Notes under the pieces: model-generated
What the model saw: only the letters and a program-made list of their open reading frames with translations
Database searches by the model: none
What the model was told of the DNA's origin: nothing
In this document: piece by piece, positions 1,782 to 62,399 of the stretch
Layout: each line of letters begins with the position of its first letter
Numbering within the stretch: position 1 is the first letter of the stretch
Position numbers and translations under genes: made by a program
Origin: Sulfurospirillum arcachonense DSM 9755
Lineage (GTDB): Bacteria; Campylobacterota; Campylobacteria; Campylobacterales; Sulfurospirillaceae
Length of the DNA: 64,000 nucleotides
Reading direction: 5' to 3'
Assembly (NCBI RefSeq): GCF_000597725.1
Contig: NZ_JFBL01000005.1
Coordinates: forward strand, 1-64,000

Positions 1782-2184
1782 AACAAAAGAGGAGGTTTTA
1801 CCTCCTCAAACACTTCGTATCCTTGATGCTAATTTTAACCGTCTAAGAGAAGGTATAAGAGTTGTAGAAGATATTTGCAGATATTACAAAAACTCAAAAG
1901 AGTTATCTTCACAACTAAAAGAGTTAAGACACAAATCAAGAGTTGAAAACTACAAAAAATTGCTTACATGTAGAGATATAACAAATGATCCTTTAAAGCA
2001 AACTACTAATAGCGAAAAAACGAGAGAATCACTAGAAGCTGTAATACTATCAAATATAAAAAGGGCTCAAGAAAGTGCTAGAGTTTTAGAAGAAATTTTC
2101 AAGCTATTTGATACACAAAATGCTGAAAAATTTAAACAAATAAGATACGATTTATATAAATTAGAACAAGATATACTGATTTAA
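1774..2184 (+). CDS. thiD2: ThiD2-family hydroxymethylpyrimidine phosphate kinase
   Basis: 136 aa. The N-terminal segment LRILDANFNRLREGIRVVED and the later ARVLEEIFK are the signature of the ThiD2 family. This domain is often fused to thiamin-phosphate synthase, and characterised members phosphorylate HMP-P in thiamin biosynthesis. Here it stands alone with no ThiE domain. The ATG at 1774 overlaps the stop of the BI-1 gene. A TTG at 1765 is an alternative in-frame start with no better ribosome binding site. Codons 6-11 lie inside a perfect 8-bp inverted repeat (1789-1807) that could fold in the mRNA close to the start. The assignment rests on motif memory, not a profile search. Confidence 0.7.
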   Translation: MNKTKEEVLPPQTLRILDANFNRLREGIRVVEDICRYYKNSKELSSQLKELRHKSRVENYKKLLTCRDITNDPLKQTTNSEKTRESLEAVILSNIKRAQESARVLEEIFKLFDTQNAEKFKQIRYDLYKLEQDILI

Positions 2185-2215
2185 AAGACAGGAGAAAAAT
2201 CCCCTATCTTTTAAA
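2180..2215. terminator. Bidirectional terminator between thiD2 and the psrC-like gene
   Basis: TTTAAAAGA at 2180-2188 pairs with TCTTTTAAA at 2207-2215, with an inner GG/CC. It separates convergent genes, and the arms themselves supply a T-rich end in both directions. Confidence 0.65.
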
Positions 2216-2218
2216 TAT

Positions 2219-3481
2219 CTAATGCTCTCTTAAATCACCAATTGAAAATAAACTATCAAAAAGTTTATAAATAAGAAGACACACTCCAACAGAACCAAAA
2301 ACTATCAAAATTTCTCCAAGGTGTGGCTTTACATAATTAAAATGACTTGCAATATCGTAAAAATCATACGTTTCATAGCCAGTACCAAATCTATTTGACA
2401 TTGGATTCGCATTTCCTCCATAAACAAAAAGAAATCTTCCTACATACCCACCAATAACAACACTTATAGACGAGATAAGAGTCCAAATTGGTTTTCCTGG
2501 TTTAATGACAAGTAAAAAAGGTAAAGCAAGTGCTAATAATATATATCCCAAAAAGTAAACATATTTAAATGGTCCAAACAAAATTAAAAATGTCCAATCT
2601 TTATCTACTGCCATATATCCAAAAACTTCATATATTGCTAAAATAGAGATAAAAAACAACATTGCTTTTCTAATTTTCTCCATAAGTTCTTTGTATTCAA
2701 ATTTATTTTTGTGAACTAAATAAGAATAAACCCCCATAATACCTAAAGAAGAAACGAAAGCGGAAATAATAAAATAAAACATCAATACTGGAAATTCTGT
2801 CCATAAATGGCGTGCTGTATTCATTGAAAAAAGTTTTGCTTGAATAAAGTATTCAACTAAATCAACACCAATACTTAATACAAGAATAGGAAGTGCTAAT
2901 CTTTTAGCTAATTCTCTTTTATTTGTCAGAATTAAATAAATTTCAAATAAAACAAAAGGTATATAGGTACAATATAACGGTAACATAAGCCACATTCCAG
3001 TGTTAACATTTGGAGTCAATATCATCCATAACATATTAAGCATATTTAAATCTGTTGCGATTGTAAACAACCCTGCAAATACCATAGAAATACCTGTAAC
3101 CATGAAACCTGCAGCTACCTTTGCAACTAAATGCATATTCATGAGTTCTGCAAGAGCTACTAAAAATATAATTCCACTGCCTGTATAAATCATATACATG
3201 TAATTAACAATAAAAAGGGTCCAAGGAACTTCTCTACTCACTTCTCCAACAGTTCCAAATACTGCTAATTTCATAGCTTCTTTAAGAGCTGGATTTGTAG
3301 GATCCATACCAGATGCATGTGCAGTTGCAGCTTCGCTAAAATATCTAAGATCAAATATTTCCAAAATACCTACACATGCAAGCCCTAACAAAATATACGA
3401 TAAAAGCATTACTTTATTAAATAAAAGGTCTTTAATACTCACTTTATTTATTGTAAGTCCTGCAAAGATTATCTTTTCCAT
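2219..3481 (-). CDS. psrC: PsrC/NrfD-like membrane subunit, second operon
   Basis: 420 aa, polytopic, with about ten hydrophobic segments, of the NrfD/PsrC type. This subunit is the membrane anchor and quinone-reactive site of polysulfide or thiosulfate reductases. It lies directly downstream of psrB- and psrA-like genes on the same strand, and its start overlaps the end of the ferredoxin gene by 13 bases, so the three are surely one transcript. It is longer than the paralogue at 8535-9701 and only loosely similar, so the two complexes may differ in quinone coupling. Substrate (polysulfide, thiosulfate or sulfur) cannot be read from the sequence. Confidence 0.85.
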   Translation of the reverse strand: MEKIIFAGLTINKVSIKDLLFNKVMLLSYILLGLACVGILEIFDLRYFSEAATAHASGMDPTNPALKEAMKLAVFGTVGEVSREVPWTLFIVNYMYMIYTGSGIIFLVALAELMNMHLVAKVAAGFMVTGISMVFAGLFTIATDLNMLNMLWMILTPNVNTGMWLMLPLYCTYIPFVLFEIYLILTNKRELAKRLALPILVLSIGVDLVEYFIQAKLFSMNTARHLWTEFPVLMFYFIISAFVSSLGIMGVYSYLVHKNKFEYKELMEKIRKAMLFFISILAIYEVFGYMAVDKDWTFLILFGPFKYVYFLGYILLALALPFLLVIKPGKPIWTLISSISVVIGGYVGRFLFVYGGNANPMSNRFGTGYETYDFYDIASHFNYVKPHLGEILIVFGSVGVCLLIYKLFDSLFSIGDLREH

Positions 3482-4131: not shown

Positions 4132-4133
4132 AA

Positions 4134-7247: not shown

Positions 7248-7279
7248 TCTACATGTAAAGGAAATCCTTTACATGTAGA
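7248..7279. repeat. Inverted pair of the TTTACATGTA motif between two psr-operon genes
   Basis: Positions 7248-7262 and 7265-7279 are 15-bp perfect complementary arms with a 2-base spacer, each carrying the dispersed TACATGTA core. It lies between the rhodanese gene and the 106-aa gene on the same transcript. No T tract follows on the minus strand, so it may act as an intra-operon attenuator or mRNA stabiliser. Confidence 0.7.
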
Positions 7280-7287: not shown

Positions 7288-8487
7288 TTAACCTAATGGC
7301 TCATTTACTTCTATTTTACATTTTGTCCCTTGACAATCTATATTTGCATCAAAATAAAATATTTTTGAAACATCCATTTTTGCATCATTTAATTTCATCC
7401 ATGCTTCCATTGCTCTACCACCACTTGCACAATTTATTACAATTGTTTTATTTTTAGGTAATTTTGCATAAAATGCTACGGCATTTAGTTTTTCAGCTTC
7501 AATGTTTATAGCACCCGGTAAATGTCCTACTTTAAACTCACTTGGACTTCTTACATCTACTATTTGTACATGTGATAAGCTTTTCATATTTGCTTTAAAC
7601 CACTCACCATCTACTGTACCATCATCTTCACCAAGTTTTATACCGCTTACCATTTTTGAAGCTTTTGGTGCTACCTTAGCTGGTGCTTTTTTTGCTTTAG
7701 AACCACCTGTTGTTGCCATACCCTCTTTTTTCCATACTGGCACACCACCAGCATATACTTTTACATTGGTATAACCTAAAGATAGTAATTTATCTGCAAC
7801 TGCATGAGATTTATGACAATTATATCCACCACAAAAAGTGATAATTGGAGTAGTTTTATCTGCTGGAAATCTTCCTGCTAATTTATCCATTGCTGTATCT
7901 GGGATAGAAACTGCACTTGGAATTGTTGCTCCTAAGTACTTTTTATATGGTCTTGCATCAATTAGTACTGCTGAGCCTTTTTTATATGCTGCTGCTACTA
8001 CTGGTGTTCCTACTTCTACATATGTCATTTTTTTCCACTCAGGCTCACCTGCTTGGTAAAGTTTTACATTTTTAAAACCTTTTTTCTTTAACATTCCTGC
8101 AACTTTTGGACTCTTACCACAATTCCAACCACCACAATAAACAATAATCTCTTTATCTTTAGCTACTTTATCTAATTGACCTACATATTTATCAAATGCA
8201 GTATCTGGGATATTTATACTTGATGGAATAGTAGAACTCGCATATTTTTTCGCTGGACGAGCATCAATTAAAAGTGCTTTTGCACCTTTTCTAGTTCCAT
8301 TTCCAATAGCTTTTTTTGTATATTCATAATTAACTACTTTTAAGTTAAACTTTTTAATCAATCCTGCTACTTTTGCAGATGGTTTACTCATTGACTTTTG
8401 TGCTGGTGTAGTTGGTTTAGTTTCCACACATCCTGTAAATAACAATGCTGCACTCACCGCAAGTGCCCCCAATAGTTTATATCTCAT
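7288..8487 (-). CDS. Three-domain rhodanese lipoprotein
   Basis: About 399 aa. A lipoprotein signal (hydrophobic stretch then LFTGC) anchors it outside the cytoplasm. Three rhodanese-like domains follow. The first two carry the loop CGGWNCGKS or CGGYNCHKS after the strand IIVY or IITF, and the third ends in CASGGRA. Each domain therefore has a candidate persulfide-forming cysteine, and the first two have a second cysteine five residues on. Lying directly behind psrABC, it probably binds and delivers polysulfide sulfur to the reductase in the periplasm. An upstream ATG at 8514 is in frame, but AGGAGGAG precedes the ATG at 8487, which is chosen. Confidence 0.85.
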   Translation of the reverse strand: MRYKLLGALAVSAALLFTGCVETKPTTPAQKSMSKPSAKVAGLIKKFNLKVVNYEYTKKAIGNGTRKGAKALLIDARPAKKYASSTIPSSINIPDTAFDKYVGQLDKVAKDKEIIVYCGGWNCGKSPKVAGMLKKKGFKNVKLYQAGEPEWKKMTYVEVGTPVVAAAYKKGSAVLIDARPYKKYLGATIPSAVSIPDTAMDKLAGRFPADKTTPIITFCGGYNCHKSHAVADKLLSLGYTNVKVYAGGVPVWKKEGMATTGGSKAKKAPAKVAPKASKMVSGIKLGEDDGTVDGEWFKANMKSLSHVQIVDVRSPSEFKVGHLPGAINIEAEKLNAVAFYAKLPKNKTIVINCASGGRAMEAWMKLNDAKMDVSKIFYFDANIDCQGTKCKIEVNEPLG

Positions 8488-8534
8488 CTTCTCCTCCTTT
8501 TTTAAATAAGGCACTAGGTGCCTTGATTTTGTTG

Positions 8535-9701
8535 TTAATGTTCCCTATCTGGATCTAAATTAAATACTTTTTCTGCTACATAAAATAAAAATATCGTTAT
8601 ACCAATTCCACCAAAACCTATAGCAAACTCTGTTGCTGAAGGAAAGTACTCTAAAAATGTTGGAGGCAATTGATACTCACTTCTTTTTAACATCGTCATA
8701 GGATAGATTAAAGTATCATGTACTAAATCATATCTCATAAAGAAAATTCCTATCATACCAGTTAATGATGCATAAACCATTGGTTTAATAGCTTGCCCAT
8801 TTGTGAACAATATTATAGCAAAAGGTATTAACATTCCCAATAAAACTTCACCAAATATAAATGTTGGACTTGAAATTACATGTAAAATTGTCTCTGCACG
8901 CTCTGGCATTGTTCCATATAGTGCCGTAATAATTTTCCATGCTTCAAAAAATATAAGAATTCCAAGTAACATACCTAATATCTTGTTAAGTTTTAAAAAC
9001 ATCGCTTTTAGTTGTTCTGGATAATCGTTTCTATATTTAAACCCATAAATAATATACAGTAAATAACAACCTGTAATCATCGCTGAAAGGATAAAGTATA
9101 CTGGATAAAATACCCCATTAGCTGTAGGACGAGAAATAAGAAAACCAAAAACAGCTCCAAGATTACTATGAGCTGCAAGACCTGATAAAAGTCCGCCTAT
9201 ACCAAATATTTTAGACCATTTATGATCCACTTTTATTGTTAAAAAGAAAAACTCAATAGTAATAAATACTAAATAAATCCCGTATAACGTTCCCATCCAC
9301 CAAATTGCTGATGTAAAACCTGGCGTTAAAACATTGTAAATTATCATAGTAACAGGATGTCCAACTTCAAGAGCAATTACAGCAAAACCTGAAAGAAGAG
9401 TTATTATTGCACCAGCAATTGCACGCTTTCCAATTTGTTGAAACTCTTCCACCCCAAAGACATGCCCTATCGAAGAGATAATACAAAGTCCAGTTGAGCT
9501 AACAACAAAAAACACATACATAGCAATTAACAATCCCCAAGGATGTTGGCGTGTTACATTAAAAGCATGATGCCCATGTAAAATATAATATGCAGCCCCT
9601 GCTAAAAAAGCCCCTAGCAAAACTATACCTAAAACAGCTACTAACAAATTTAGTGGTGTTTTATTAAATTCAAATAAATTTTTAATAGAAAAATTGTTCA
9701 T
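8535..9701 (-). CDS. psrC: PsrC/NrfD-like membrane subunit, first operon
   Basis: 388 aa with about nine to ten membrane spans of the NrfD family, the quinone-interacting anchor of PsrABC-type complexes. It follows psrB by nine bases and precedes the rhodanese gene by 47 bases, so it belongs to the operon starting at 12619. A charged C-terminus follows the last span (NLDPDREH). Its paralogue at 2219-3481 is longer and less similar than the catalytic subunits are to each other. That is consistent with the two complexes using different membrane electron carriers, though this is inference. Confidence 0.87.
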   Translation of the reverse strand: MNNFSIKNLFEFNKTPLNLLVAVLGIVLLGAFLAGAAYYILHGHHAFNVTRQHPWGLLIAMYVFFVVSSTGLCIISSIGHVFGVEEFQQIGKRAIAGAIITLLSGFAVIALEVGHPVTMIIYNVLTPGFTSAIWWMGTLYGIYLVFITIEFFFLTIKVDHKWSKIFGIGGLLSGLAAHSNLGAVFGFLISRPTANGVFYPVYFILSAMITGCYLLYIIYGFKYRNDYPEQLKAMFLKLNKILGMLLGILIFFEAWKIITALYGTMPERAETILHVISSPTFIFGEVLLGMLIPFAIILFTNGQAIKPMVYASLTGMIGIFFMRYDLVHDTLIYPMTMLKRSEYQLPPTFLEYFPSATEFAIGFGGIGITIFLFYVAEKVFNLDPDREH

Positions 9702-9710
9702 AATAACCCT

Positions 9711-10274
9711 CTATAGTAAGTAAAATAATTTTGGTTTAGTGCCAAGGTGTTCTTTCACTTGCTTATACTCTCTCTTAGCTATCAGCTGTGAAATATCACT
9801 ATTAGGATCATCTAAATCACCAAAAGTTCTAACTTTTGTTGGACAAGTTGCTTGACAAGCTGTTGTTGTCTCTCCATTTGCCAATCTTGTATCAGAACAA
9901 AAGTTACATTTATCTACAGTAACTGTTCTATCATCAACATATCTTGCATCGTAAGGACACGCATTGATACAATACGTGCATAAAATACATTTTTCAATGT
10001 CAACTCTCACTACGCCATTATCGTCATAATATGTTGCATTTGTCGGACATACTTGCTGACAAGGTGCATTATCACAATGCTGACATTGACTTGGATGATA
10101 TGTCATCGATGCAATCGATATATTTGGGAATTCTCCCTCAGCCTCTTTTTGCCCTACCCAGATTCTATAATTATCACGACCAGGAAGAACTCCATTTTCT
10201 GCCTTACATGCACTCTCACATGCACGACAATTTATACAACTTTTATAGTCTAATGCCATTCCATAACGTGCCAT
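9711..10274 (-). CDS. psrB: PsrB-like four-cluster ferredoxin subunit, first operon
   Basis: 187 aa. Cysteine groups CINCRACESAC, CQHCDNAPCQQVC, CILCTYCINAC and CNFC...CQATC give four [4Fe-4S] sites, the hallmark of the PsrB/PhsB electron-transfer subunit. It shares the start MxYxMAL and the ending TKVR(L/T)FGDLDD with its paralogue at 3469-4131 but lacks the extra C-terminal 30 residues. It is separated by two bases from the catalytic subunit gene and by nine bases from the membrane subunit gene, so translation is likely coupled. Confidence 0.92.
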   Translation of the reverse strand: MARYGMALDYKSCINCRACESACKAENGVLPGRDNYRIWVGQKEAEGEFPNISIASMTYHPSQCQHCDNAPCQQVCPTNATYYDDNGVVRVDIEKCILCTYCINACPYDARYVDDRTVTVDKCNFCSDTRLANGETTTACQATCPTKVRTFGDLDDPNSDISQLIAKREYKQVKEHLGTKPKLFYLL

Positions 10275-10276
10275 TA

Positions 10277-12982: not shown

Positions 12983-13678
12983 CTATACACTGGGAGAAAC
13001 TACATATAATACTTCGAACTCTAAATAGTCATGAGGATAATTTCTTATAAGATTTTTTGTTTGTGTAACAGTGAGTTTTTTCTTTCCTCCACTTACTCCA
13101 CTTTTTTTAATATATCTAAATATTGACATATTATCGTCAAAAACTACTTTATATGTTTTTATTTCATAGTTTATATCAAAATATTTTTTTATTATTGTTA
13201 CGAGTTCTTTTGCATCTGGTAAAAAAGTTTTGAGTCCACTTACATTATATATATCTTTAAAAGTATTACATGTAAAGATAGAAAATGCAATATTTTTACT
13301 CAATGATGCAGTAAACTTTATAAGTTCTTCTATATCATCTGACCATTGTAACGCTGATGAAGAAATAACAATATCAAAAGGAGCAAATTTTTGTATTTTT
13401 TTTTGAAAACTTTCTGATTCAAAGTTTTCATTTAAAACTAATATATTTGAAGACACTGGATGTTTTTCACACATACCCTTGGCACAATCAATACCAATAA
13501 AGTTCTCATATTGCCAAGTTATTTTTTTATTTATGTCCCCTGTACCACAACCTAAATCTAAAATTTTTTTTGGTTTTGATTTTATTTTAGATAACAAATA
13601 TTTTGCTACTTTTTTTTGAACGATAGTATTCGCATCATAACTATGCGACTGTTTTGAAAACTCTCTAATATGCTTCAA
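12983..13678 (-). CDS. bioC: Malonyl-ACP O-methyltransferase BioC
   Basis: 231 aa class I SAM-dependent methyltransferase. Motif I ILDLGCGTGD lies near residues 40-50, followed by IGID and the BioC-like SSSALQWSDD near residue 107. The C-terminal segment FRYIKKSGVSGG is typical of BioC proteins in Campylobacterota. BioC methylates malonyl-ACP so that the fatty-acid machinery can make the pimeloyl precursor of biotin. No other biotin gene is adjacent. It stands alone, divergent from secG across an 83-base gap. A different methyltransferase function remains possible, since only family motifs are visible. Confidence 0.75.
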   Translation of the reverse strand: MKHIREFSKQSHSYDANTIVQKKVAKYLLSKIKSKPKKILDLGCGTGDINKKITWQYENFIGIDCAKGMCEKHPVSSNILVLNENFESESFQKKIQKFAPFDIVISSSALQWSDDIEELIKFTASLSKNIAFSIFTCNTFKDIYNVSGLKTFLPDAKELVTIIKKYFDINYEIKTYKVVFDDNMSIFRYIKKSGVSGGKKKLTVTQTKNLIRNYPHDYLEFEVLYVVSPSV

Positions 13679-15606: not shown

Positions 15607-15607
15607 T

Positions 15608-16216
15608 ATGAATTTAGAAAAAATATATAGAGATGCACAGGCTTATTTAGAGGGACACTTTCTTTTAAGTAGTGGAAAACACTCACAATTCTATCTTCAA
15701 AGTGCAAAAGTTTTAGAAGACCCAAAAGTAGCAGAAATATTAGCAAAAAACTTAGCTGATATGATTAAAGAAAGTGGTATACATGTAGATACTGTTTGCT
15801 CACCTGCTCTTGGTGGAGTTTTAGCTGGATATGAACTAGCACGTGCACTTGGTGTAAGATTTATTTTTGCTGAGCGTGTTGATGGTAAAATGACTATTAG
15901 ACGTGGTTTTGAAGTAAAAAAAGATGAAAAAATACTTATGTGTGAAGATATCATTACAACTGGTGGCTCAGCACTTGAAGCAGCAAGCGAAGTAGAAAAC
16001 CAAGGTGGAGAGATAGTAGGATACGCAGCTCTTGCAAACAGAGGTTTTTGTAAACGTGTAGGAAGCAACAAAGACGCCAAACCTACATGTAAACTTCCAA
16101 ATGATGTTCCTTTCTTTGCTCTTGGAGATTTTGAATTTGAAATTTATGATGAGAAAGAGTGTCCTTTATGTAAAAATGGTACAAAAGCTTATAAACCTGG
16201 TAGTAGAGGAAACTAA
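15608..16216 (+). CDS. pyrE: Orotate phosphoribosyltransferase
   Basis: 202 aa. The PRPP-binding motif [17 protein letters not shown] lies near residues 113-129, and the N-terminal [16 protein letters not shown] is typical of PyrE. The enzyme converts orotate and PRPP to OMP in pyrimidine synthesis. The C-terminal CPLCKNG with two Cys is a feature of this subfamily. It sits one base after frr and abuts the RDD gene with no gap. Two TACATGTA copies fall in the coding sequence (15780-15787 and 16084-16091). Confidence 0.96.
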
Positions 16217-18370: not shown

Positions 18371-18404
18371 ATTCTCTACATGTAAAGCTTTACATGTAGA
18401 GAAT
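18371..18404. terminator. 34-bp perfect palindrome made of two TTTACATGTA motifs
   Basis: Positions 18371-18387 and 18388-18404 are exact reverse complements with no spacer (centre AAG/CTT). The palindrome lies seven bases beyond the typA stop. It is likely the typA terminator or 3' stem, built from two inverted copies of the dispersed TACATGTA motif. A weak T-rich stretch follows on the minus strand. Confidence 0.65.
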
Positions 18405-20487: not shown

Positions 20488-22071
20488 ATGAAAGAGATGT
20501 TTTCTATATCATCTGGTGCAAATATAGCAAAAACAAAACCTGTAGAAACAGCTTCATCAAAAGAAGTTCTTAGTGATGATAAATCTTCTTCAAAAGATTT
20601 TTTATCTATACTTTTTTCTCAAATTAAAGAATCAATTGATATGGGTAAAGACAATGGAAAACTTGCTATAGACATACCTACTGAAGAAGTCAAAATAGAT
20701 TTAAGTAATGATACTGCTGAAAAATCTATTGATGAGCATCTTTTAGAAGATATCTTAAAAGTTATAACCCTATTAAAAAATCCTGATGATAAAAATGTAT
20801 CATTTCCATCATTTTCAAATAAACTAGAAAAAATTATCAATAATGAAACTGCATTAAAAGAGTTAAAAGAAGTAAGTAACATAACTGACTTGCTAAAGCT
20901 ATCTAAAAAATATGACTTAGGATTAGAAAAAATATCTATTAAAAGCCTCGATGTTGAAACTTTTAAAAAAGAGTTTCCTACTCTTGATAAAAAACAGTTT
21001 TTTGAACTGCCTAAAGAGACAAATACTAAAACTAATACCACTCCCATTCAAGCAAAAAAAGAATCTGATATAAAGGCAACTATAATTAATGTCAGAGATA
21101 TGGAAAAATCTACAACGCAAATTAAAAAAGAACCTAGTATATTAGAAAAGATGATGAGTTCTCCTACAAAAGATATAAAAGAAGTTTCTAAACCAAAATC
21201 TGAAGCTTTACATGTAGATAAAGAAATCATAAAAGAAAAAATTATAGAAGATAAAAAAGAAATTACTACAAAAATAACTGAAGAAGTTAAAAAATCTGAA
21301 AAAACTATACAAGAAGTTACTCCCAAAGTTGTTGTAAAATCAGAAGAAAAAGATATTAAAGTAAAAACTATAAAAGAAGATTTAGATACTAAAATAAGTA
21401 AAGAAATAAAAACTCCAGATACTACAAGAGTAAATGAACCTAAAGTAGAATCAAATATACCTAAACAAGGCTCATTTGAAAATATACTACAAGGTATAAA
21501 ACAGACTAAAACTACAATTGAAACTAAACCTACAAATGAAACCAATTTAAAAACTGAAAATTCAAAAGTAGAGAAGCTTCCAAGTGAAACAAATGAAGTT
21601 AAAACAGAACCAGTTACTAATAAAACAGATTTAAAACCTCAGATGAAAGCTGAAACACAATTTGCTAAACAAAACACTACGGCAAAAGAGACTTTTAACA
21701 ACTTTGCAAATGATTTAAGAGAAAAAATAGAAAATTATAAACCACCTATTATGAAAGTACAAATGCTACTTAACCCTAAAGGTTTAGGTGAAGTTGATGT
21801 GGTAGTGGTTAACAGAGGAAATAATTTACATGTAAACATTTCTTCAAATACAAATACCATGTCTTTATTTACACAAAATCAAGCAGAATTTAAAAACTCT
21901 CTTGTGAACATGGGTTTTACAAACTTAGAAATGAATTTTTCAGATCAAAGAGAAAATAAAGAGCAACAGAACAACAATAAGTCGTCAAAAAGTTTTAATG
22001 ATAACTTTGAAGATGAAAATTTAGAAGAAGAGACAACTGCTATAGAATTAGTTGTCCCTCAATATGTATAA
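20488..22071 (+). CDS. fliK: Flagellar hook-length control protein FliK
   Basis: 527 aa. Residues 1-170 are moderately structured. Residues 180-390 are a Lys/Thr/Glu-rich low-complexity stretch, as expected for the molecular ruler part of FliK. Residues about 410-490 form the hook-length control domain (MKVQMLLNPKGLGEVDVVV ... NSLVNMGFTNLEMNFSD). FliK is secreted through the flagellar export apparatus and switches its specificity when the hook is complete. First gene behind a sigma-54 promoter, followed after ten bases by flgD. Two TACATGTA copies lie inside (21209-21216, 21827-21834). Confidence 0.88.
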   Translation: MKEMFSISSGANIAKTKPVETASSKEVLSDDKSSSKDFLSILFSQIKESIDMGKDNGKLAIDIPTEEVKIDLSNDTAEKSIDEHLLEDILKVITLLKNPDDKNVSFPSFSNKLEKIINNETALKELKEVSNITDLLKLSKKYDLGLEKISIKSLDVETFKKEFPTLDKKQFFELPKETNTKTNTTPIQAKKESDIKATIINVRDMEKSTTQIKKEPSILEKMMSSPTKDIKEVSKPKSEALHVDKEIIKEKIIEDKKEITTKITEEVKKSEKTIQEVTPKVVVKSEEKDIKVKTIKEDLDTKISKEIKTPDTTRVNEPKVESNIPKQGSFENILQGIKQTKTTIETKPTNETNLKTENSKVEKLPSETNEVKTEPVTNKTDLKPQMKAETQFAKQNTTAKETFNNFANDLREKIENYKPPIMKVQMLLNPKGLGEVDVVVVNRGNNLHVNISSNTNTMSLFTQNQAEFKNSLVNMGFTNLEMNFSDQRENKEQQNNNKSSKSFNDNFEDENLEEETTAIELVVPQYV

Positions 22072-31098: not shown

Positions 31099-31150
31099 CT
31101 TAAATGATACAAAATTTAAATAAAAGAAATTTAGTTTGGACAAGTTCTAA

Positions 31151-33481
<2,331 letters not shown>

Positions 33482-41155: not shown

Positions 41156-41882
41156 GTTTTTCTCCTAGCATTTGTAAAAGTTCAACTTCACAAAAATGCC
41201 CATCATTTGCATGAAATTTTCGTTTTTTACTCACATCATGAAAAGCCAAATTTTTATTAACGTGAGCAACACTTGAAGCATATTCTAAAATTATAGAGAT
41301 ATCATGGCTTACTACAACTATAGTTATATATTTATTTAATTCTTTTAAAAGATTATATATCTCTTTTTGCCCTTTTATATCAATGTTTGATGTGGGTTCA
41401 TCTAAAAGAAGTATTTTAGGATGTGAACAAAGTGCACGTGCTATCATAACTCTTTGTCTTTGTCCTCCTGAGAGAGAACCAATTTTGTTTTGTGCAAACT
41501 CTTTCATCCCTACTTGTTCTAATACACCCAATGCACAATTTATTTCTTCTTTTTTATATCCAATTAAAGGTTTTTTATGTCCTACATGGCCCATCATAAC
41601 AACTTCTATTACTTTAATAGGAAAGTTTGTATTTACATTTGTATTTTGTGGAACATATCCTATGGAAGTTAAATTTTTTGATGGGTTTTCTCCAAATATT
41701 TTTATAGATGGAATTTTTGGTTTTTCAAGAGCAATAATGAGCTTTAAAAGAGTACTTTTTCCACCACCATTTGGCCCTATTATGGCTAAAAATTCTTTTT
41801 CTTTTACATGTAAATTTACATTTTCTAATATAATGTCTTTTTCATAAGAAAAAGAGAGATTTTTTATTTCTATAACATTCAT
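41148..41882 (-). CDS. znuC: ZnuC-type metal ABC transporter ATPase
   Basis: 244 aa. Walker A GPNGGGKST near residue 36, Q-loop VPQNTNVN, signature LSGGQRQRVMIARAL, Walker B ILLLDEPTSNID and the switch His in VVSHD are all intact. It energises the permease encoded by the overlapping next gene. Its ATG overlaps the stop of a 23-codon reading frame (ATGA), implying translational coupling. One TACATGTA copy lies inside at 41805-41812. Confidence 0.92.
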   Translation of the reverse strand: MNVIEIKNLSFSYEKDIILENVNLHVKEKEFLAIIGPNGGGKSTLLKLIIALEKPKIPSIKIFGENPSKNLTSIGYVPQNTNVNTNFPIKVIEVVMMGHVGHKKPLIGYKKEEINCALGVLEQVGMKEFAQNKIGSLSGGQRQRVMIARALCSHPKILLLDEPTSNIDIKGQKEIYNLLKELNKYITIVVVSHDISIILEYASSVAHVNKNLAFHDVSKKRKFHANDGHFCEVELLQMLGEKHV

Positions 41883-45371: not shown

Positions 45372-45463
45372 AAATGACTCCCAATTTAGCATAACTCTAT
45401 TATAGAAGATTTTTTTTTAAAGATATAGAAAAAAATTGCTATACTTACATGTAAAGGATAAGA

Positions 45464-45565
45464 ATGGACAAAAGATATAGAAACTTTTATATTCGTTTGG
45501 TAGTTGGGATTACATTTTTATTGGCAATATTGGTTAGTAGTATCCTAAACACATTTCAGAACTGA
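45464..45565 (+). CDS. Candidate 33-aa single-span membrane peptide
   Basis: MDKRYRNFYIRLVV... has a basic N-terminus, then a hydrophobic helix of about 17 residues and a short polar tail. AAAGGA (45453-45458) precedes the ATG by five bases. TGC-TATACT (45437-45445), an extended -10 element, gives a short leader. The end overlaps the 3' end of the convergent gene at 45534. Small hydrophobic peptides of this form include assembly factors and type I toxins; no antisense RNA was identified. A real gene is plausible, not proven. Confidence 0.45.
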   Translation: MDKRYRNFYIRLVVGITFLLAILVSSILNTFQN

Positions 45566-46010
45566 GTTTGATTTTCTTTTCAAATGGAGATGGCCCAAAG
45601 TACTTGCACTTTTCAACATAAATATTATACTTATAATCAAGATTCAGATCATCGTAAAATTTTTTTAGATTGACGAGTTTTATACCATATAAGTCTATTA
45701 TCTCCAATTTTTTATATATAACAGAGTTGTTTTTTTCAATAAGATGAGATGGAGCAATACCCGTGTATTTGCAAAATGCTTGAGACTGAACAAAACCTGT
45801 TAAATCTTTACATGTAAGGACTATATCTTTGTACTTTTCTAAGATAGTTCTTTTGTCTAAAAACACAGCTCTACAACCATCATATTTTACAGCTTTTACA
45901 TTTTTCCAAAATCGATAAGCATTCGAAGATATTCCCACTAGTTCACATAATTCTTTATTTAAAATATAGTTATCTAAAAATTCGTTATTTGAAAGTACAT
46001 CCATTTGCAT
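45534..46010 (-). CDS. Protein of unknown function
   Basis: 158 aa, cytoplasmic, with eight cysteines scattered (C22, C46, C67 and others) and no clear metal motif. The N-terminal stretch NKELCELVGISSNAYRFWKN could be a helix-turn-helix, and a second region TGFVQSQAFCKYTGIAPSHL has a similar pattern, so a DNA-binding role is possible but weak. Single gene, divergent from the FAD dehydrogenase. Contains one TACATGTA copy at 45809-45816. Confidence 0.65.
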   Translation of the reverse strand: MQMDVLSNNEFLDNYILNKELCELVGISSNAYRFWKNVKAVKYDGCRAVFLDKRTILEKYKDIVLTCKDLTGFVQSQAFCKYTGIAPSHLIEKNNSVIYKKLEIIDLYGIKLVNLKKFYDDLNLDYKYNIYVEKCKYFGPSPFEKKIKLSSEMCLGYY

Positions 46011-46095: not shown

Positions 46096-47376
46096 ATGAC
46101 AAAAATAAAATCAAATTATGATGTAATTATTGTAGGCTCTGGTCCTGCTGGATTGGGTGCGGCTTTTAAGTTAGCCCAAAACTCAGATTGTTCAGTTTTG
46201 TTATTAGAAAAGAAGAAGATAAGTTCGGGAGGACTTAGAAATGATTGCAAACAAAACTATACATATCCTGTAGGATTTCCATATGAGCATTGGACTAAAG
46301 AAGATGCTGATATTTTACTTGAAGAAGTAAAACAACACTTAAATCCAAAATTTGAAAAAAGACTCAATATTGAGAAATACCAAAAACGAGCAAAAAAAAT
46401 AGGAGTTGAAATACTCTCTATAGACCAAGCCCACGTTGGAACAGACAAATCTTCAGAACTTATTGCGAGTCTTATTGAAAAACTCAAAGCTTTACATGTA
46501 GAGGTTGCTTTACATGTAGAAGTAAAAGAACTTGTGAAAAATACAAAAGAAATTATTTTAGAAGATGGACAAATAATATCGTTTAAGAATCTTGTTTTAG
46601 CACCTGGCCGTGCTGATTATGATTGGCTTCAAGAACAGATGCGTATTTTGGATATCAAATATAGTGATAATATAGTTGACATTGGCGTAAGAATAGAGAC
46701 TAAAGAGGAAAATTATCCAATAGTTAGAGACTATTATGACCCTAAAATTTTATTCCCAAATAAAGTAAGAACATTTTGTACAAATTCAGGCTGTGCTCAT
46801 ATAGTCAGAGAGAAGTATAAAGGGTACTATTCTGTTAATGGACACTCACTATCAAAAGAAAACGAACGAAATAATTTAGTAAATTTTGCAATGTTAAAAA
46901 CCATAAGATTAACCGAACCAGTAGTGAGCGGACAACAGTTTGGAAAGATACTTGGTGAGATGGTTATGCAACTTACTGGAGGTTCAGTTATCATGCAAAG
47001 AGTGGGTGATTTTAGGCTTGGAAGTAGAAGTAAAAAAGAGACTTTTAACTCTGATTTGTATGATTTTGAGCCAACGCTTAAACATGCAGTTGCTGCTGAT
47101 TTATCATTGAGTATGCCAGCAAAAATACTTCGCGATATTTGGAAATCTTTAAAAATGTTAGATACTATTATCCCTGGAGTTTTACATCCTTCTACAATTA
47201 TCTATTACCCCGAAATAAAGACATATTCCAATAAACCTATTTTTATAGATGATAATTTTATGGTTAAAGATGGTTACTACATCATAGGAGATGGAGCAGG
47301 AACAAGCAGAGGAATAACTGGAGCTTGGGCTTCAGGAATACGAGCAGCTAATGGAATATTAAAGAAAAAAAATTAG
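46096..47376 (+). CDS. FAD-dependent dehydrogenase (COG2509 type)
   Basis: 426 aa. The N-terminal dinucleotide-binding motif VIIVGSGPAGLGAAFKL (residues 10-26) and the C-terminal YYIIGDGAGTSRGITGAWASG (second FAD motif) mark a large flavoprotein of the uncharacterised COG2509 dehydrogenase group. Substrate unknown. Codons around residues 131-142 contain two direct copies of an 18-base unit carrying TACATGTA (46489-46524), giving a repeated ALHVEV. No strong ribosome binding site is visible before the ATG. Confidence 0.85.
   Translation: MTKIKSNYDVIIVGSGPAGLGAAFKLAQNSDCSVLLLEKKKISSGGLRNDCKQNYTYPVGFPYEHWTKEDADILLEEVKQHLNPKFEKRLNIEKYQKRAKKIGVEILSIDQAHVGTDKSSELIASLIEKLKALHVEVALHVEVKELVKNTKEIILEDGQIISFKNLVLAPGRADYDWLQEQMRILDIKYSDNIVDIGVRIETKEENYPIVRDYYDPKILFPNKVRTFCTNSGCAHIVREKYKGYYSVNGHSLSKENERNNLVNFAMLKTIRLTEPVVSGQQFGKILGEMVMQLTGGSVIMQRVGDFRLGSRSKKETFNSDLYDFEPTLKHAVAADLSLSMPAKILRDIWKSLKMLDTIIPGVLHPSTIIYYPEIKTYSNKPIFIDDNFMVKDGYYIIGDGAGTSRGITGAWASGIRAANGILKKKN
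46489..46524 (+). repeat. Two tandem 18-base units carrying the TACATGTA motif inside a gene
   Basis: GCTTTACATGTAGAGGTT (46489-46506) is followed directly by GCTTTACATGTAGAAGTA (46507-46524), differing at two bases. It encodes ALHVEV twice within the FAD dehydrogenase. Confidence 0.8.
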
Positions 47377-56423: not shown

Positions 56424-57800
56424 TTAAACTGGTACATCAACTTTTGGAAAGGTAATACTTATATTTAGTCCATGAGGTTTTATGTTTGTCAGTTCGATAG
56501 AACCATTATGTAATTCAACGATTTGTTTTACGATAGCTAATCCTAAACCAGTTCCTTGTTTTTTGGTATCAAGCCTAAAAAAGCGATTAAATATTTTTTT
56601 TAAATACTCTTTAGGAATACCAGGGCCATTATCTGAAATACTCATAGTGATGGTATTTTGATTTTCATGAATAGAAATTGTTAGGGTGTTTTTTTCTGTT
56701 GTATTTTCACTGAGGGCATATTTTTGTGCATTATTGATAAGATTATTTAATAGACTTTCAATAATGACATCTACACCATTAATCCAAAGGCTTTTTTTTG
56801 CTTCAAATATGATGTCAAACCCATCAGCATAAAGTATTGGTGCTTTAAGAAGTGCTACTTTTTTACATAGTTCAGTTAAATCAAATGGTTTAAAATTGAT
56901 GCGATCATATACATCAGGATTTGTGTGGGCATGAAGTAAGAGTTGTTCTGATGTATGTACCATATTTCGGATGCTTTCAAGATAAAATTCTTTTTGTTCT
57001 TCATTGATAGAATCATCTGTTTCAATCATAATTCTTAATTCTGCTAGAGGTGTTCTAAGTTGATGTGAAACATCTTCATTAAATTGGGCTACATGTAAAA
57101 AACTTTTTTTAAGTCTTTTGAGTAGTTGGTTAATGCTTTGTACAAGTGCTATTACTTCAATAGGTGTTCGGTCTTCTTTGATAGGAGCAAGGTCATGCAT
57201 ATCTCGTCGTTTAATAGAGTATTGTAGTGCTACAAGAGGACTTAAACCTTTATTTACGGAATAAAAAGTACAAATAAGGGTACTTATAATGATTAAAAGA
57301 GTAATCAGCGCAAGCATGAAATATATTTTATAACGCATTGCATGTCTATCTTCTAGAGTTTCTGCAATAGTAATTACAACATTATAAGATTTTTTATTGC
57401 GTCTCATAGTATGTAAAGTTCTAAGGGCTCTAATTTCTTGACCAAAAAATATCGCATTATAGTAAGTTTGATTAGAATCAGATTTTGTTGTTTTAGGAAT
57501 ATTTCTAAATCCAGCAATCAAGTTTCCTGACAAATCTTCTATGCTATAAAAAAGGCTGCTATCTCCTGATGATGTTTGTAGATTGATGCCAAGATGACGT
57601 TGCTTAAATATAATTTTTGATTTATTCACGTAGAGGCGATCGATAATACTATTGCTTTCATGTTTTAAGATATCATCAAAATATTGGTTAATTTCATGGT
57701 TACTAAATAAATAAACAGCAATAATAGCCAAAAGCGTAATCAATAAAAATGAGTAACCAAGCCATCCAATTAATTGCCGTTTTATAGAAATATAATACAT
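56424..57800 (-). CDS. TctE-like sensor histidine kinase
   Basis: 458 aa. Membrane spans at about 12-32 and 160-185 flank a periplasmic domain of the TctE/2CSK_N type (YSIEDLSGNLIAGF...). The phosphoacceptor is FNEDVSHQLRTPLAELRI near 238, and the ATPase boxes are LLNNLINNAQKYA, SDNGPGIP and GTGLGLAIVKQI. It follows its response regulator gene by five bases on the same strand. Likely senses carboxylates, perhaps through the adjacent Bug protein. Confidence 0.9.
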   Translation of the reverse strand: MYYISIKRQLIGWLGYSFLLITLLAIIAVYLFSNHEINQYFDDILKHESNSIIDRLYVNKSKIIFKQRHLGINLQTSSGDSSLFYSIEDLSGNLIAGFRNIPKTTKSDSNQTYYNAIFFGQEIRALRTLHTMRRNKKSYNVVITIAETLEDRHAMRYKIYFMLALITLLIIISTLICTFYSVNKGLSPLVALQYSIKRRDMHDLAPIKEDRTPIEVIALVQSINQLLKRLKKSFLHVAQFNEDVSHQLRTPLAELRIMIETDDSINEEQKEFYLESIRNMVHTSEQLLLHAHTNPDVYDRINFKPFDLTELCKKVALLKAPILYADGFDIIFEAKKSLWINGVDVIIESLLNNLINNAQKYALSENTTEKNTLTISIHENQNTITMSISDNGPGIPKEYLKKIFNRFFRLDTKKQGTGLGLAIVKQIVELHNGSIELTNIKPHGLNISITFPKVDVPV

Positions 57801-57805
57801 GTAAG

Positions 57806-58714: not shown

Positions 58715-59668
58715 ATGCTAAATAACCAAAAAGTTTCTGTTATAGGTACGGGTAATGTAGGTACAGCTATCGCATATCAATTAGCTATGCGTAACCTTTG
58801 TCGTCAAGTAGTGTTGATTGGTCGAACGTATGATAAAGCAAAAGGTAAAGCTCTTGATATCACACAAGCTTCGGCGACAATACAGTCAACGACACAAGTC
58901 CTTGGAAGTGCTAGTTTTTCTGATATGAAAGATAGTAAAATTGTTATAATTACTTCAGGAAGTCCAAGAAAACCTGGTATGAGTCGTGATGATCTTCTTA
59001 TTAGTAACGCAGATATCACAAAAGATTTAGCACATAAAGTTAAAGAGTTTGCACCAGAATCAATTGTGATAGCAGTAGCAAATCCCCTTGATGCAATGAC
59101 ATATGTTGTTTTTCGTGAAACGGGATTCCCTAGAGAAAGAGTTTTAGGAATGGCAGGAGTGCTTGATAGTTCTCGTATGGAGGCATTAATCGCTCAAAAA
59201 ACGGGTATGGGCTGTGGACAAGTACAAGCAATAGTTTTAGGTGGACATGGTGATGAGATGGTACCACTTCCTCGTTTTAGTACTGTTAATGGTGTGTCTG
59301 TTCAAGAGTTATTAAGTAAAAAAACCATAGATCAAGTGATAGAAAAAACACGTCGTGGTGGTGCGCAAATCGTAGATCTTTTAGGAACATCAGGCTATTT
59401 TGCACCAGCAAATAGTGCGGTTGTTATGGCTGAGGCCATTTTGAGAAACAGTGAGGCATTATTGCCGTGTGCTGTTCTTCTTGATGGAGAGTATGGATAC
59501 CACGATGTTGTTACAGGTGTTCCTATTGTTTTGGGTGCTGATGGTATGAAAGATATCATTGAATTTTCACTAAATGAAAAGGAAAAAGAGGCATTCAAGC
59601 GTAGTATTGCAACAGTACAGTCAATGCTTAATATCCTTGAAAAACAAAATTTTTATGAATATGCCTAA
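58715..59668 (+). CDS. mdh: Malate dehydrogenase (LDH-like type)
   Basis: 317 aa. The NAD-binding motif VIGTGNVGTAIAY is at residues 9-21, the substrate loop SPRKPGMSRDDLL near 92, and the catalytic His in LGGHGDEMVPL near 177. The arginine in the substrate loop fits malate over lactate. Converts malate and oxaloacetate. A GAGAGAAAAGGA ribosome binding site precedes the ATG. A palindromic terminator follows. Position next to the DASS transporter and its regulators suggests use of imported C4-dicarboxylates. Confidence 0.93.
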   Translation: MLNNQKVSVIGTGNVGTAIAYQLAMRNLCRQVVLIGRTYDKAKGKALDITQASATIQSTTQVLGSASFSDMKDSKIVIITSGSPRKPGMSRDDLLISNADITKDLAHKVKEFAPESIVIAVANPLDAMTYVVFRETGFPRERVLGMAGVLDSSRMEALIAQKTGMGCGQVQAIVLGGHGDEMVPLPRFSTVNGVSVQELLSKKTIDQVIEKTRRGGAQIVDLLGTSGYFAPANSAVVMAEAILRNSEALLPCAVLLDGEYGYHDVVTGVPIVLGADGMKDIIEFSLNEKEKEAFKRSIATVQSMLNILEKQNFYEYA

Positions 59669-59684
59669 TTAAGTTCGAATGACC

Positions 59685-59711
59685 AAAATACTTTACATGT
59701 AAAGCTATTTT
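59685..59711. terminator. Bidirectional terminator built on a TTTACATGTA palindrome
   Basis: CTTTACATGTAAAG (59691-59704) is a perfect palindrome, extended by AAAATA/TATTTT on the outside with one bulged C. It lies between convergent mdh and the methyltransferase gene. Confidence 0.7.
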
Positions 59712-59722
59712 AGTCTAACTAT

Positions 59723-60295
59723 CTAGAGTTTTTTGATTTCTATAGACTGTTTTTTCATCCTAAATAGTTCATAGTCTTCATTTTCAAATTCATCATAATC
59801 CAAAATTTCAAATTGATTATCAAAAAAACTTTTAAGTTCATCTTTTTGTAACAAAAAATCAGGGTTTGAGGGTGGCTTTTCATTTATCTTATCATGCATG
59901 TATGTTTCAATAAAAAGTATACCGCCTTTTTTAAGTCCGGCTGATAACTTAGGTATTAAATCTCTATCGAGAAAATTTGCCATAATGATTAGGTCATAAG
60001 AGTTTTTAGGCACTTCATATTCATCTAAATCAACTAATTTACAAGTGATGTTTTGAAAAGCTTTTTTATCAAGTTCATCCAGTGCTATTTGCGAAATATC
60101 TATTGCTTCAACTTCAAAACCATTTAAAGCTAGATAAATCGAGTTTCTTCCAGCTCCTGAAGCTACATCAAGAGCTTTTTTACCTTTTACTTTATGGAGT
60201 ATTTGAGTCAGTTTTTTACTAGGCTCTTTTTTCTCAAGTAAAGAGGGTGTTTCTTTGTACTTTTTATTCCATTTTATTTTATCTTTTTGTGCCAT
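59723..60295 (-). CDS. Class I SAM-dependent methyltransferase
   Basis: 190 aa. The SAM site ALDVASGAGRNSIYLALNGF lies near residues 41-60, with IDIS next and LIIMANFLDRDLIP near 100. It resembles the TehB/thiopurine-type small methyltransferases that act on tellurite, selenium or small thiols. The substrate is not determinable. Starts one base before the stop of the upstream lipoprotein gene, so both share a transcript. Confidence 0.85.
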   Translation of the reverse strand: MAQKDKIKWNKKYKETPSLLEKKEPSKKLTQILHKVKGKKALDVASGAGRNSIYLALNGFEVEAIDISQIALDELDKKAFQNITCKLVDLDEYEVPKNSYDLIIMANFLDRDLIPKLSAGLKKGGILFIETYMHDKINEKPPSNPDFLLQKDELKSFFDNQFEILDYDEFENEDYELFRMKKQSIEIKKL

Positions 60296-61513
60296 TTAAT
60301 TACTTTTTATTTGATTTCTAAATTTTTTGAGTTTTTTGTTCCAACCATCTTTATCAAATCCGTCTTTATCGTAGCCATCTTTGTCAAAAGATCTTGTAAC
60401 TTTTTTATCTAAAATAAGTCTTTGTTTCATTATAGATTGTTTTGGTTTATCAAAATCTAATAGTTTTTTTCTTGCTGATTTAAAATAATATTGCACTATC
60501 TTTGTGGGTTTTGATTTTTTACCATAGATTTTTTTACCTACTAAATCAAAGCCAGTTTGCGTTTTTATATAGCGTACATCATCATAAAAACTTCTATTAT
60601 ATAATTCATCTTTCATTTGTGAACTTAGTTTTATTACATCAAAAGAGTAAGGTCTGCTTTCTTTCCCTTTTTTAACAAATTTCTTTAGTTTAGGACTCCA
60701 TCCATCTTTATCCACACCATCTTTATGCAGTTTATGTATGTCAAGCCCATCAACGTCATACTTTGTTTTAGTGATTTTATTGATGCCATCTTTATTCCAG
60801 CCTTTATAGTCATATCCTTTTAAATCATAGATAGAATCTGTAAGTATATTGTGTCCTAAGTCGTTGAAGCCATCGGTGTTGTATCCTTGTTTACTTCTCC
60901 ATGCATCATCTAAGTTATCTTTGTTAAAATACTTTTTAAATTTATTAAAACATTTTTGGCCTGTTTGAACCATGTACTTTTTATAAATCTTTTGGTTATT
61001 TGAAAATGAAAGTTCCATAAAATAGCTTTTTTCGTTTTTCCCGCAAGTTAAAAAATTGATACCGTCTATAGTATCAACTAAACAGTTGTGATCAAAATGT
61101 TTCAAAAGTTGATTTTTATAAGTAGATTTAAAAGAGACTTTGTCATCTAGCTTTGAACCACTTGCTTTAGAAATAACAATATCGGGACAAGAACTATTTT
61201 CAAGTTTGTAAAACGTTTGGATACTTATAGCATTTAACATAGATAATTTTTGACTTTTTACTCTGCTTTTAACATCTATAAATGATAGCTTACCTAAGCA
61301 CATAGCTTTAACTTTAGAAGAGTAACCAGTATCAAATCTATCTGCGATGTTAGAGCACTTTATATAAGATAGTTTTTTAGCTGGGCTAAGCTTCTTTTTG
61401 ATTTGTTTTTTTTCAGAGGTATTTGCTTGAGCGGAATTATTCTGACTTGTATTTGCACAAGCAGTAAATAAAATGGATATAACCACTAAAACAATAATAT
61501 TTTTTATTTTCAC
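60296..61513 (-). CDS. Lipoprotein with DG-rich (YDxDGxDKDGW) repeats
   Basis: 405 aa. The lipobox is LFTAC at about 16-20, so the protein is membrane-anchored outside the cytoplasm. Two clusters of short repeats based on Y/F-D-x-D-G-x appear: one around 215-270 (GYNTDGF, GYDYKGWNKDG, YDVDGLDIHKLHKDGVDKDGW) and one near the C-terminus (FDKDGYDKDGFDKDGW). Both end in a LKKF segment. Asp/Gly spacing is compatible with calcium binding or with a repeat-fold adhesin, but neither is shown. Seven Cys lie in the N-terminal half. Family not recognised. Confidence 0.75.
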   Translation of the reverse strand: MKIKNIIVLVVISILFTACANTSQNNSAQANTSEKKQIKKKLSPAKKLSYIKCSNIADRFDTGYSSKVKAMCLGKLSFIDVKSRVKSQKLSMLNAISIQTFYKLENSSCPDIVISKASGSKLDDKVSFKSTYKNQLLKHFDHNCLVDTIDGINFLTCGKNEKSYFMELSFSNNQKIYKKYMVQTGQKCFNKFKKYFNKDNLDDAWRSKQGYNTDGFNDLGHNILTDSIYDLKGYDYKGWNKDGINKITKTKYDVDGLDIHKLHKDGVDKDGWSPKLKKFVKKGKESRPYSFDVIKLSSQMKDELYNRSFYDDVRYIKTQTGFDLVGKKIYGKKSKPTKIVQYYFKSARKKLLDFDKPKQSIMKQRLILDKKVTRSFDKDGYDKDGFDKDGWNKKLKKFRNQIKSN

Positions 61514-61595
61514 ATTTGACCTTATTATAGTTTTATAAAGTCACTATTATATCTTTTTATAATATTAAATAAAAATTAGTGAGGTTGATTTTTGA

Positions 61596-62399
61596 TTAGT
61601 TGGCATTTAATTTTCCTTTTAAATGATTTAGATTATTAATTATTAAGTTATTACATGTAAGAAATAATAAAGAGAATAAAAAAACAAGGGAAAAACTATT
61701 TAAAAGAAAATATATTCCATAGGAGTAGATATAATTATAAAATATTCTTTTTGTATAAAACCCTGGTTGACTATCATTAAAAAACAAGTAACTTAAATAA
61801 ATCCCTAAGAAACATATAGTTAGGTTAATAATAATATCTTTTAGAGAATATTTATTCTTTAAATTTAAACTTTTATCTTTAGGGGTTTTAATATAATAAA
61901 TTGTAAATATTGAAAATAATATAACACTAAAAACAAAAATCCAAGAAAAACATACTTTAAAAGATAAAGGATTGAAAGTATATTTTTCAAAGTTGTGATA
62001 AAATACTTTAAAATATGGTTCTACATAAGGATATAAAGAGCTTATAAATTCATCTTTGTAAAGTCCTGTCATAGTAAAGATAAAGCCAAATAAAATAGAA
62101 ATAAAAAATCCATAATAAAAAAGTCTAGCTTCAAATCTAAAAGCATCTAAGCTTTTATATTTATTTTTATCTTTCATTTTTTGTAGTTCTGGGTCTTTTA
62201 GATTATTATCAAGATAATACTTGTGAGTTAAACTTTTTTTATACTCTTCTATCTCTTTTCTTCTCTCAACTCTTTCAGCTCGAGTTTTATGTCTATATTT
62301 ATGTGCTCTTTTTATTAAATACTTTGATGCAATTATTTTTTGCTCTAATTTTATAACAATCATTGCCATTAAAACAAAAAACACAATAAGATAAATCAT
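61596..62399 (-). CDS. Membrane protein of unknown function
   Basis: 267 aa. Four to five hydrophobic spans: an N-terminal anchor (3-18), then pairs near 90-115 and 145-170 and two near 190-205 and 225-250. Between the first two is a very basic stretch (KRAHKYRHKTRAERVERRKEIEEYKKS), which is cytoplasmic by the positive-inside rule. No conserved motif is recognised. Single gene upstream of the DG-repeat lipoprotein gene, 80 bases away on the same strand. One TACATGTA copy falls near its end. Confidence 0.65.
   Translation of the reverse strand: MIYLIVFFVLMAMIVIKLEQKIIASKYLIKRAHKYRHKTRAERVERRKEIEEYKKSLTHKYYLDNNLKDPELQKMKDKNKYKSLDAFRFEARLFYYGFFISILFGFIFTMTGLYKDEFISSLYPYVEPYFKVFYHNFEKYTFNPLSFKVCFSWIFVFSVILFSIFTIYYIKTPKDKSLNLKNKYSLKDIIINLTICFLGIYLSYLFFNDSQPGFYTKRIFYNYIYSYGIYFLLNSFSLVFLFSLLFLTCNNLIINNLNHLKGKLNAN

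Follow-up and report, generated by a model that had tools for sequence, protein, structure and literature searches.

Distribution of TACATGTA in the window and the genome

The 8-bp palindrome TACATGTA is dispersed through the first 64,000 nucleotides of contig NZ_JFBL01000005.1 of Sulfurospirillum arcachonense DSM 9755, a stretch that we refer to as the window (C5:1-64000 of an assembly of 2,656,384 bp in 42 contigs, here G000). DnaA, GyrB, an epsilon-type FlgE, and a TypA that is 92–93% identical to Sulfurospirillum records, one of them from S. arcachonense, agree with this assignment. An initial annotation had reported 22 copies, far above chance, and likened them to DNA uptake sequences (DUS). 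We confirm that the dispersed motif is real. Counting exact copies, as we do below, the window holds 22, compared with 1.80 expected (standard deviation 1.29, largest value 7) from 100 dinucleotide-preserving shuffles, none of which attained 22 (0/100), and with 1.5–1.9 predicted by Markov models of order 1 to 3. Twenty-one of the annotated start positions are exact, and the copy placed at 13268 begins at 13267. Fifteen of the 22 lie wholly within a long open reading frame (ORF), those at 7250, 7270, 18377, 18391, 45446, and 59694 are intergenic, and the copy at 57796 overlaps a start codon. The intergenic pairs 7250/7270 and 18377/18391 fold into hairpins. The copies are given below, with the outcome of a position-by-position alignment against all 80 TypA loci (L numbers).

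1965..1972: TACATGTA inside an ORF of the ThiD2 family (1765-2184, + strand)
3195..3202: TACATGTA inside an NrfD-family ORF (2219-3481, − strand); position kept in 3/3 aligned loci (L019, L021, L022)
7250..7277: inverted pair of TACATGTA (7250, 7270) between ORFs; RNA hairpin of −21 kcal/mol, z −9.0
8877..8884: TACATGTA inside an NrfD-family ORF (8535-9701, − strand)
13267..13274: TACATGTA inside an ORF with the general methyltransferase domain PF13649 (12983-13678, − strand); of the aligned loci, kept solely in L013 and L016
14857..14864: TACATGTA in a TTTACATGTAAAG context inside a polysaccharide-deacetylase ORF (14103-15059); position common to 14 of 19 aligned Sulfurospirillum-like loci, a grouping of our own
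15780..15787: TACATGTA inside a phosphoribosyltransferase ORF (15608-16216); kept in a single aligned locus, L016
16084..16091: TACATGTA inside the same phosphoribosyltransferase ORF; kept in 16 aligned loci, reads GACATGTA in L027 and L087 (S. cavolei)
18377..18398: inverted pair of TACATGTA (18377, 18391) directly 3′ of typA; hairpin of −19.1 kcal/mol, z −7.7
21209..21216: CTTTACATGTAGA inside an ORF (20488-22071, + strand)
21827..21834: TACATGTA inside the same ORF; kept in 21 aligned loci, TACATGTC in L023, L024, and L087, TTCATATT-like in Campylobacter
41805..41812: TACATGTA inside an ORF (41148-41882, − strand)
45446..45453: TACATGTA, intergenic
45809..45816: TACATGTA inside an ORF with no Pfam match (45534-46010, − strand)
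46493..46518: two CTTTACATGTAGA in direct orientation inside a FAD-dependent oxidoreductase-like ORF (46096-47376, + strand)
57090..57097: TACATGTA inside a sensor-kinase-like ORF (56424-57800, − strand)
57796..57803: TACATGTA overlapping the ATG start of the sensor-kinase-like ORF
59694..59701: TTTACATGTAAAG between convergent ORFs (58715-59668, + strand, and 59723-60295, − strand)
61652..61659: TACATGTA inside an ORF with no Pfam match (61596-62399, − strand)

Across the G000 genome, TACATGTA occurs 1124 times, or about once per 2.4 kb, and the reversed control word ATGTACAT 54 times; an excess of about 20-fold over the control leaves no room for a genome-wide frequency near Markov expectation. 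The longer form TTTACATGTAAA is present 283 times and CTTTACATGTAGA 104 times (57 forward and 47 reverse), with no copies of either control. In a 464-kb sample of G000, made up of the window and 20 stretches of 20 kb, TACATGTA tops both the over-represented 8-mers and the palindromic 8-mers by a wide margin. Its best form is CTTTACATGTAAAG. Around a strict core, the flanks are graded in the same sample, C, T, T preceding the core and their mirror image following it. Extension to CTTTACATGTAGA or TTTACATGTAAAG, which had been ascribed to most window copies, holds for just 7 and 2 of them, respectively (9/22).

The strictness of the core is also evident from near-misses, for which perfect copies were masked in the background model. 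The 464-kb sample contains 216 perfect sites, with 6.8 expected, and 290 one-mismatch sites, with 268 expected; the clearest one-mismatch excess is CACATGTA (17 versus 5.4). Named TypA loci with at least three copies (25 of the 80, a choice that favors motif-rich genomes and that also underlies both conservation counts below) contain 195 perfect sites versus 3.3 expected and 187 one-mismatch sites versus 148 (z 3.2). We considered the idea that scarce near-misses speak against an uptake sequence and dropped it, given the account in PMC1626085.

The initial annotation also described a lack of copies from 21.8 to 41.8 kb, around the origin. This motif-free stretch is real within the window; its 20-kb extent is local and recurs in none of the five complete relatives with dnaA near base 1. 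In those genomes, about 4–5 kb from the dnaA start is motif-free (5/5), the usual density resumes past the dnaA-gyrB block, and one genome has a copy upstream of dnaA. We therefore rejected an origin-avoiding pattern beyond the dnaA-dnaN-gyrB block of about 5 kb, which is motif-free in the window (28551-33481) and at the C1 starts of G013, G014, G017, G018, and G023. The motif is also present on plasmid-like DNA: the first 20 kb of a 39,868-bp contig (L223, from G016:C2) contains six TACATGTA, including two pairs 38–39 bp apart.

Placement within and between genes

Using a simple ORF caller to divide the 464-kb sample, we assigned 185 of 216 copies to coding sequence (0.43 per kb) and 31 to intergenic sequence (0.92 per kb). 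Intergenic density is 1.57 per kb between convergent genes (6 sites in 3.8 kb), 0.99 between tandem genes, and 0.41 between divergent genes. Neighboring copies are 14–24 bp apart in 12 of 195 cases, compared with about 3 under an exponential distribution of the same mean (1795 bp), and several of these close neighbors are inverted pairs. Five intergenic inverted pairs, hand-picked from the sample, have folding energies of −17.9 to −21.5 kcal/mol (z −4.7 to −9.0). A run of U residues after the hairpin is absent at both hairpins in the window.

Most genic copies are read in the frames CAT-GTA (114/184) or ACA-TGT (59/184), which is expected, given that the third frame would, in the usual flanking context, create a stop codon. 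Their orientation on the coding strand is balanced (CTTTACATGTA 54, TACATGTAAAG 52). A preferred codon string does not explain the enrichment: shuffling synonymous codons within genes yields 45.5 TACATGTA, compared with 183 observed, and the control word ATGTACAT is found 12 times versus 14.6 expected. Protein sequence has itself adapted to the DNA motif. The peptide LHVK occurs 37 times versus 1.5 expected (25-fold) and FTCK 12 times versus 0.4 (33-fold), whereas the reversed peptides VHL and CTF are found at 0.94 and 1.76 times expectation.

Conservation and dialects

TACATGTA is found in all 44 genomes, incomplete assemblies included, of a family (f1) that we infer to be Sulfurospirillaceae, and it exceeds the reversed control in 43 of them. 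The exception is G010 (28 versus 25). The other 43 genomes contain 92 to 1727 copies, the lowest being G006 (92 versus 22), G001 (104 versus 25), G021 (109 versus 50), and G040 (165 versus 16). An order-wide survey of 298 genomes, 29 of them in the family, used the 12-mer TTTACATGTAAA and so misses other flanks and dialects outside the family; of the 269 genomes outside it, four, each from family f17, have at least eight copies (86, 21, 14, and 8), and the others have 0–3. De novo word counts recovered the same core in two of these four (G160, 34 in 100 kb; G139, 13 in 60 kb).

Conservation in sister genomes, which the annotation had proposed as a test, is strong. In blastn alignments (11-base seeds) of 65–75% identity, with the window added to the chosen TypA loci, 60–62% of copies are exactly kept, as opposed to 6–10% of same-letter 8-mers, one site being counted in many pairs. 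Over 158 distinct sites from the same loci, mean conservation is 60%. Campylobacter loci lack the motif at the few positions where they can be aligned.

Some relatives have a related word instead. GACATGTA or TACATGTC often replaces TACATGTA at its positions in S. cavolei (L087), L023, L024, and L027, and this dialect word is enriched in L087 alongside TACATGTA (8 versus 0.4). The preferred form in loci L019-L022 is CTACATGTAG. G010, which has no excess of TACATGTA, has ATCATGA(T) in its place (ATCATGAT, 108 versus 30 in 213 kb, both strands; stretches L135-L144 and L196), a weaker signal than that of the other dialects. TCATGA was present in 0 of 60 aligned comparisons at the TACATGTA positions of relatives, so the G010 copies do not mark old sites and appear to be newly arisen. 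In G021, a weak excess of TACATGTA remains and we found no new word. No clear new dialect emerged from de novo word counts in 18–60 kb samples of G034, G001, and G040.

Competence genes

A ComEC match is present in 41 of the 44 family genomes, the other three being 81–90% complete. Seven of nine ORF-listed loci contain two or three pilin-like genes, priA, ispG, dnaB, and comEC consecutively; L208 has one recognized pilin, and L204 (f17) has pilins and priA followed by other genes. Pfam confirms the PriA domains, ComEC, and pilin N termini in G000, and in the other loci ispG, dnaB, and priA were assigned by reading the sequences. A type II/IV secretion ATPase is also present.

The motif is dense in two of these genes. 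There are 1.70 copies per kb in comEC and 1.41 per kb in priA (15 genomes each, G010 and G021 excluded by choice), versus 0.43 per kb in G000 coding sequence. The comparison genes dnaB (13 genomes), uvrB (11), and ispG (12) have 0.14, 0.14, and 0 copies per kb. Exceptions are L200 and L208, with one or no copy in each of comEC and priA, and L204, with none in either; no gene of the set was recognized in L202 (G160). Family members largely have their comEC and priA copies at matching positions. In the f17 genome G139 most positions are different, one comEC position being shared with L208, which suggests that these genes gained the motif separately there.

Six genes of the 464-kb sample have four copies (0.9 expected): comEC, AddB-like, AddA-like, photoproduct-lyase-like, tilS, and an iron-sulfur protein gene. 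In a post hoc test, four of these six fall in the genome-maintenance class, compared with 1 to 3 of 40 random genes of 0.9–3 kb (Fisher P 0.0004 to 0.003, the range reflecting the class assigned to DnaB, CinA, and the type II secretion ATPase).

Methyltransferases and the Campylobacter palindrome

The initial annotation had offered a methylase site as an alternative. Among the 44 family genomes, PF01555 has matches in 23, PF02086 in 38, and PF00145 in 30. Of these three classes, G000 (1124 copies) has only PF00145 and G016 (1372 copies) only PF02086, and G004, G029, and G033 (259, 342, and 671 copies) have none. At E ≤ 0.001, PF02086 has no match in G000, G033, or G160. Since all three classes are patchy among motif-rich genomes, no one of them explains the motif. 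We therefore rejected a single methyltransferase of these classes as its cause, and the methylase alternative is weakened to that extent.

Three relatives have PF02086 proteins with 26–31% identity to one C. jejuni protein of this class that we take, without proof, to be CtsM. DNA uptake by C. jejuni is reported to require an RAATTY site methylated by CtsM (PMC8468864, where it is printed RATTY; PMC10046745), and 27,280 RAATTY positions are listed for strain NCTC11168 (PMC4889913). The pilin-like protein Cj0683, encoded before priA, is described as essential for efficient C. jejuni DNA uptake (PMC10046745). The Sulfurospirillum motif does not match RAATTY: its center is ACATGT, and the list of top words from the 464-kb sample includes no RAATTY word.

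Campylobacter loci have a palindrome of their own. TAAATTTA occurs 136 times versus 4.5 expected in the C. concisus/showae group, 112 versus 15 in a fetus-like group, and 72 versus 32 in the C. jejuni group. Because other AT-rich palindromes, such as TTTAAA, are equally enriched in the C. jejuni group, the signal is non-specific there. Among loci L043-L091, both TAAATTTA and CAAATTTG are strongly over-represented around the RAATTY core in C. concisus/showae and fetus-like loci. We found no such palindrome in small samples of groups outside Campylobacter and the Sulfurospirillum family.

Discussion

We propose that TACATGTA is probably the DUS of a Sulfurospirillaceae competence system, spread by uptake-biased recombination, and would put the probability of this at roughly 60%. 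It is the best supported of the explanations offered in the initial annotation. Several sequence hallmarks of uptake sequences are present, and biased uptake itself would be predicted. The support is indirect and comes from the abundance of the motif, the strictness of its core, its conservation, its hairpin pairs, its dialects, its density in competence and recombination genes, and the Campylobacter palindrome. As described for the DUS and uptake signal sequences (USS) of Neisseriaceae and Pasteurellaceae, copies number in the hundreds to thousands, have a strict core, and are both genic and intergenic. Inverted-pair hairpins, strong conservation of sites, and dialects with a fixed center are further likenesses, and higher density in genome-maintenance genes (for TACATGTA, comEC and priA) may be another. 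Neisserial DUS are reported to be far more conserved than their surroundings and to form hairpins as inverted pairs (PMC2397512). TACATGTA differs in that it is palindromic, with an 8-bp core and AT-rich flanks, and belongs to another bacterial group.

How might such a signal work? The receptor would be a pilin-like subunit of the competence pseudopilus, perhaps either of the two pilins whose genes adjoin priA, and would bind the palindrome on extracellular duplex DNA. Fragments bearing a copy would be preferentially imported and integrated into the chromosome by recombination; with time, such a bias would spread and maintain copies genome-wide by molecular drive. Changes in the receptor could give rise to new dialects, such as GACATGTA, CTACATGTAG, and ATCATGAT, and where specificity was lost, copies would decay. 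Inverted pairs may also have been recruited into intergenic hairpins.

Several observations weigh against this proposal. Known DUS and USS are asymmetric, while the TACATGTA core is palindromic. An uptake sequence would be expected to occupy permissive regions of the core genome and to be scarce in accessory DNA. The plasmid-like contig holds six copies in 20 kb, and sequence flanking copies is scarcely more divergent than random places in the same alignments (1.2 versus 0.6 percentage points below alignment identity). The gene-class test followed inspection of the list, and its control genes for CinA and the type II secretion ATPase carried no copies. In addition, comEC and pilins are present in G010 and G021, in which loss of the motif is complete or nearly complete. 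Machinery and motif thus do not correspond one-to-one, and we rejected loss of comEC or pilins as the cause of motif-poor genomes. Recognition in Campylobacter depends on methylation (PMC8468864; PMC10046745). Lastly, we found no report of an uptake sequence in Sulfurospirillum in the open-licence PubMed Central literature; among the matches listed there for competence, none mentioned Sulfurospirillum, and among those listed for TACATGTA and its longer forms, none concerned these bacteria.

Iterated palindromes similar to HIP1 (highly iterated palindrome 1) of cyanobacteria, protein-binding sites, and Chi-like signals are weaker rivals of an uptake sequence. HIP1 is likewise a dispersed 8-bp palindrome with most of its variation at the outer positions (PMC4390886), and TACATGTA resembles it in its very high number, its mostly genic placement, and a near-miss excess that is clearest at an outer position (CACATGTA). 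An element of this kind, made or used with an orphan DNA methyltransferase, for example in methyl-directed repair, would have no role in uptake. We consider it unlikely: Elhai describes, for each genome that contains HIP sequences, a methyltransferase with a predicted specificity for part of the motif (PMC4390886), whereas none of PF01555, PF02086, and PF00145 is common to all motif-rich genomes of the Sulfurospirillum family and three have no match to any of them. HIP1 is also GC-rich, whereas TACATGTA is AT-rich, and it would account for neither the inverted-pair hairpins nor the density in comEC and priA. That the copies are binding sites of an abundant chromosome-organizing or global regulatory protein, a possibility that the initial annotation had also raised, seems improbable as well. 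A palindrome would suit a dimeric protein, and a site every 2.4 kb or so and strong conservation of single sites could be accommodated; however, one-mismatch sites are hardly enriched, unlike the usual sites of regulators (PMC1626085), most sites are genic, and the few stretches sampled give no sign of an origin-to-terminus pattern.

A Chi-like recombination signal for an AddAB enzyme would be consistent with the AddA-like and AddB-like genes. The density of TACATGTA falls within the range of Chi sites; known Chi sites, however, are asymmetric and read from one side, and neither hairpin pairs nor clade dialects would be expected of them, making this quite improbable. Least probable, and by our estimate very unlikely, is that TACATGTA is mainly an RNA or terminator element that spread. 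Inverted pairs fold strongly and density peaks between convergent genes, as such an element would require, but 185 of the 216 sampled sites are coding, CTTTACATGTA and TACATGTAAAG are equally frequent on coding strands, and neither window hairpin is followed by a U run.

If TACATGTA is an uptake sequence, might it belong to a wider code? C. jejuni and Sulfurospirillum are in the same order, judging from the grouping of our survey tool and from their names, and both have the gene for a pilin-like protein before priA, in Sulfurospirillum as a pilin-pilin-priA locus. The palindromes also share a plan, T-AAATTT-A in Campylobacter and T-ACATGT-A in Sulfurospirillum. The systems may differ in their methylation: uptake by C. 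jejuni is methylation-dependent, and G000 has no match to PF02086, the class that we assume to include CtsM. It is possible, although we hold it at somewhat less than even odds, that a single uptake code, based on an 8-bp palindrome whose dialect varies by clade, is common to much of the Campylobacterales, methylation-dependent or methylation-free according to lineage and read by priA-linked competence pilins. As part of the same tentative claim, the dialects would be TAAATTTA in Campylobacter, TACATGTA in Sulfurospirillaceae and some f17 genomes, GACATGTA beside TACATGTA in S. cavolei, and ATCATGAT in G010.

Were these proposals correct, self-recognition by an abundant genomic sequence would extend beyond Neisseriaceae and Pasteurellaceae and would include a palindromic signal. 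A link to the methylation-based Campylobacter system would make the origin and switching of dialects testable within one order. Organohalide- and arsenate-respiring members of Sulfurospirillum are hard to manipulate, and adding the motif to donor DNA could provide a practical route to their transformation.

Finally, we note that in L200 (positions 7904-10351; G022, S. cavolei-like), the DnaB-like frame encodes 815 amino acids, compared with about 476 elsewhere, which suggests an intein.

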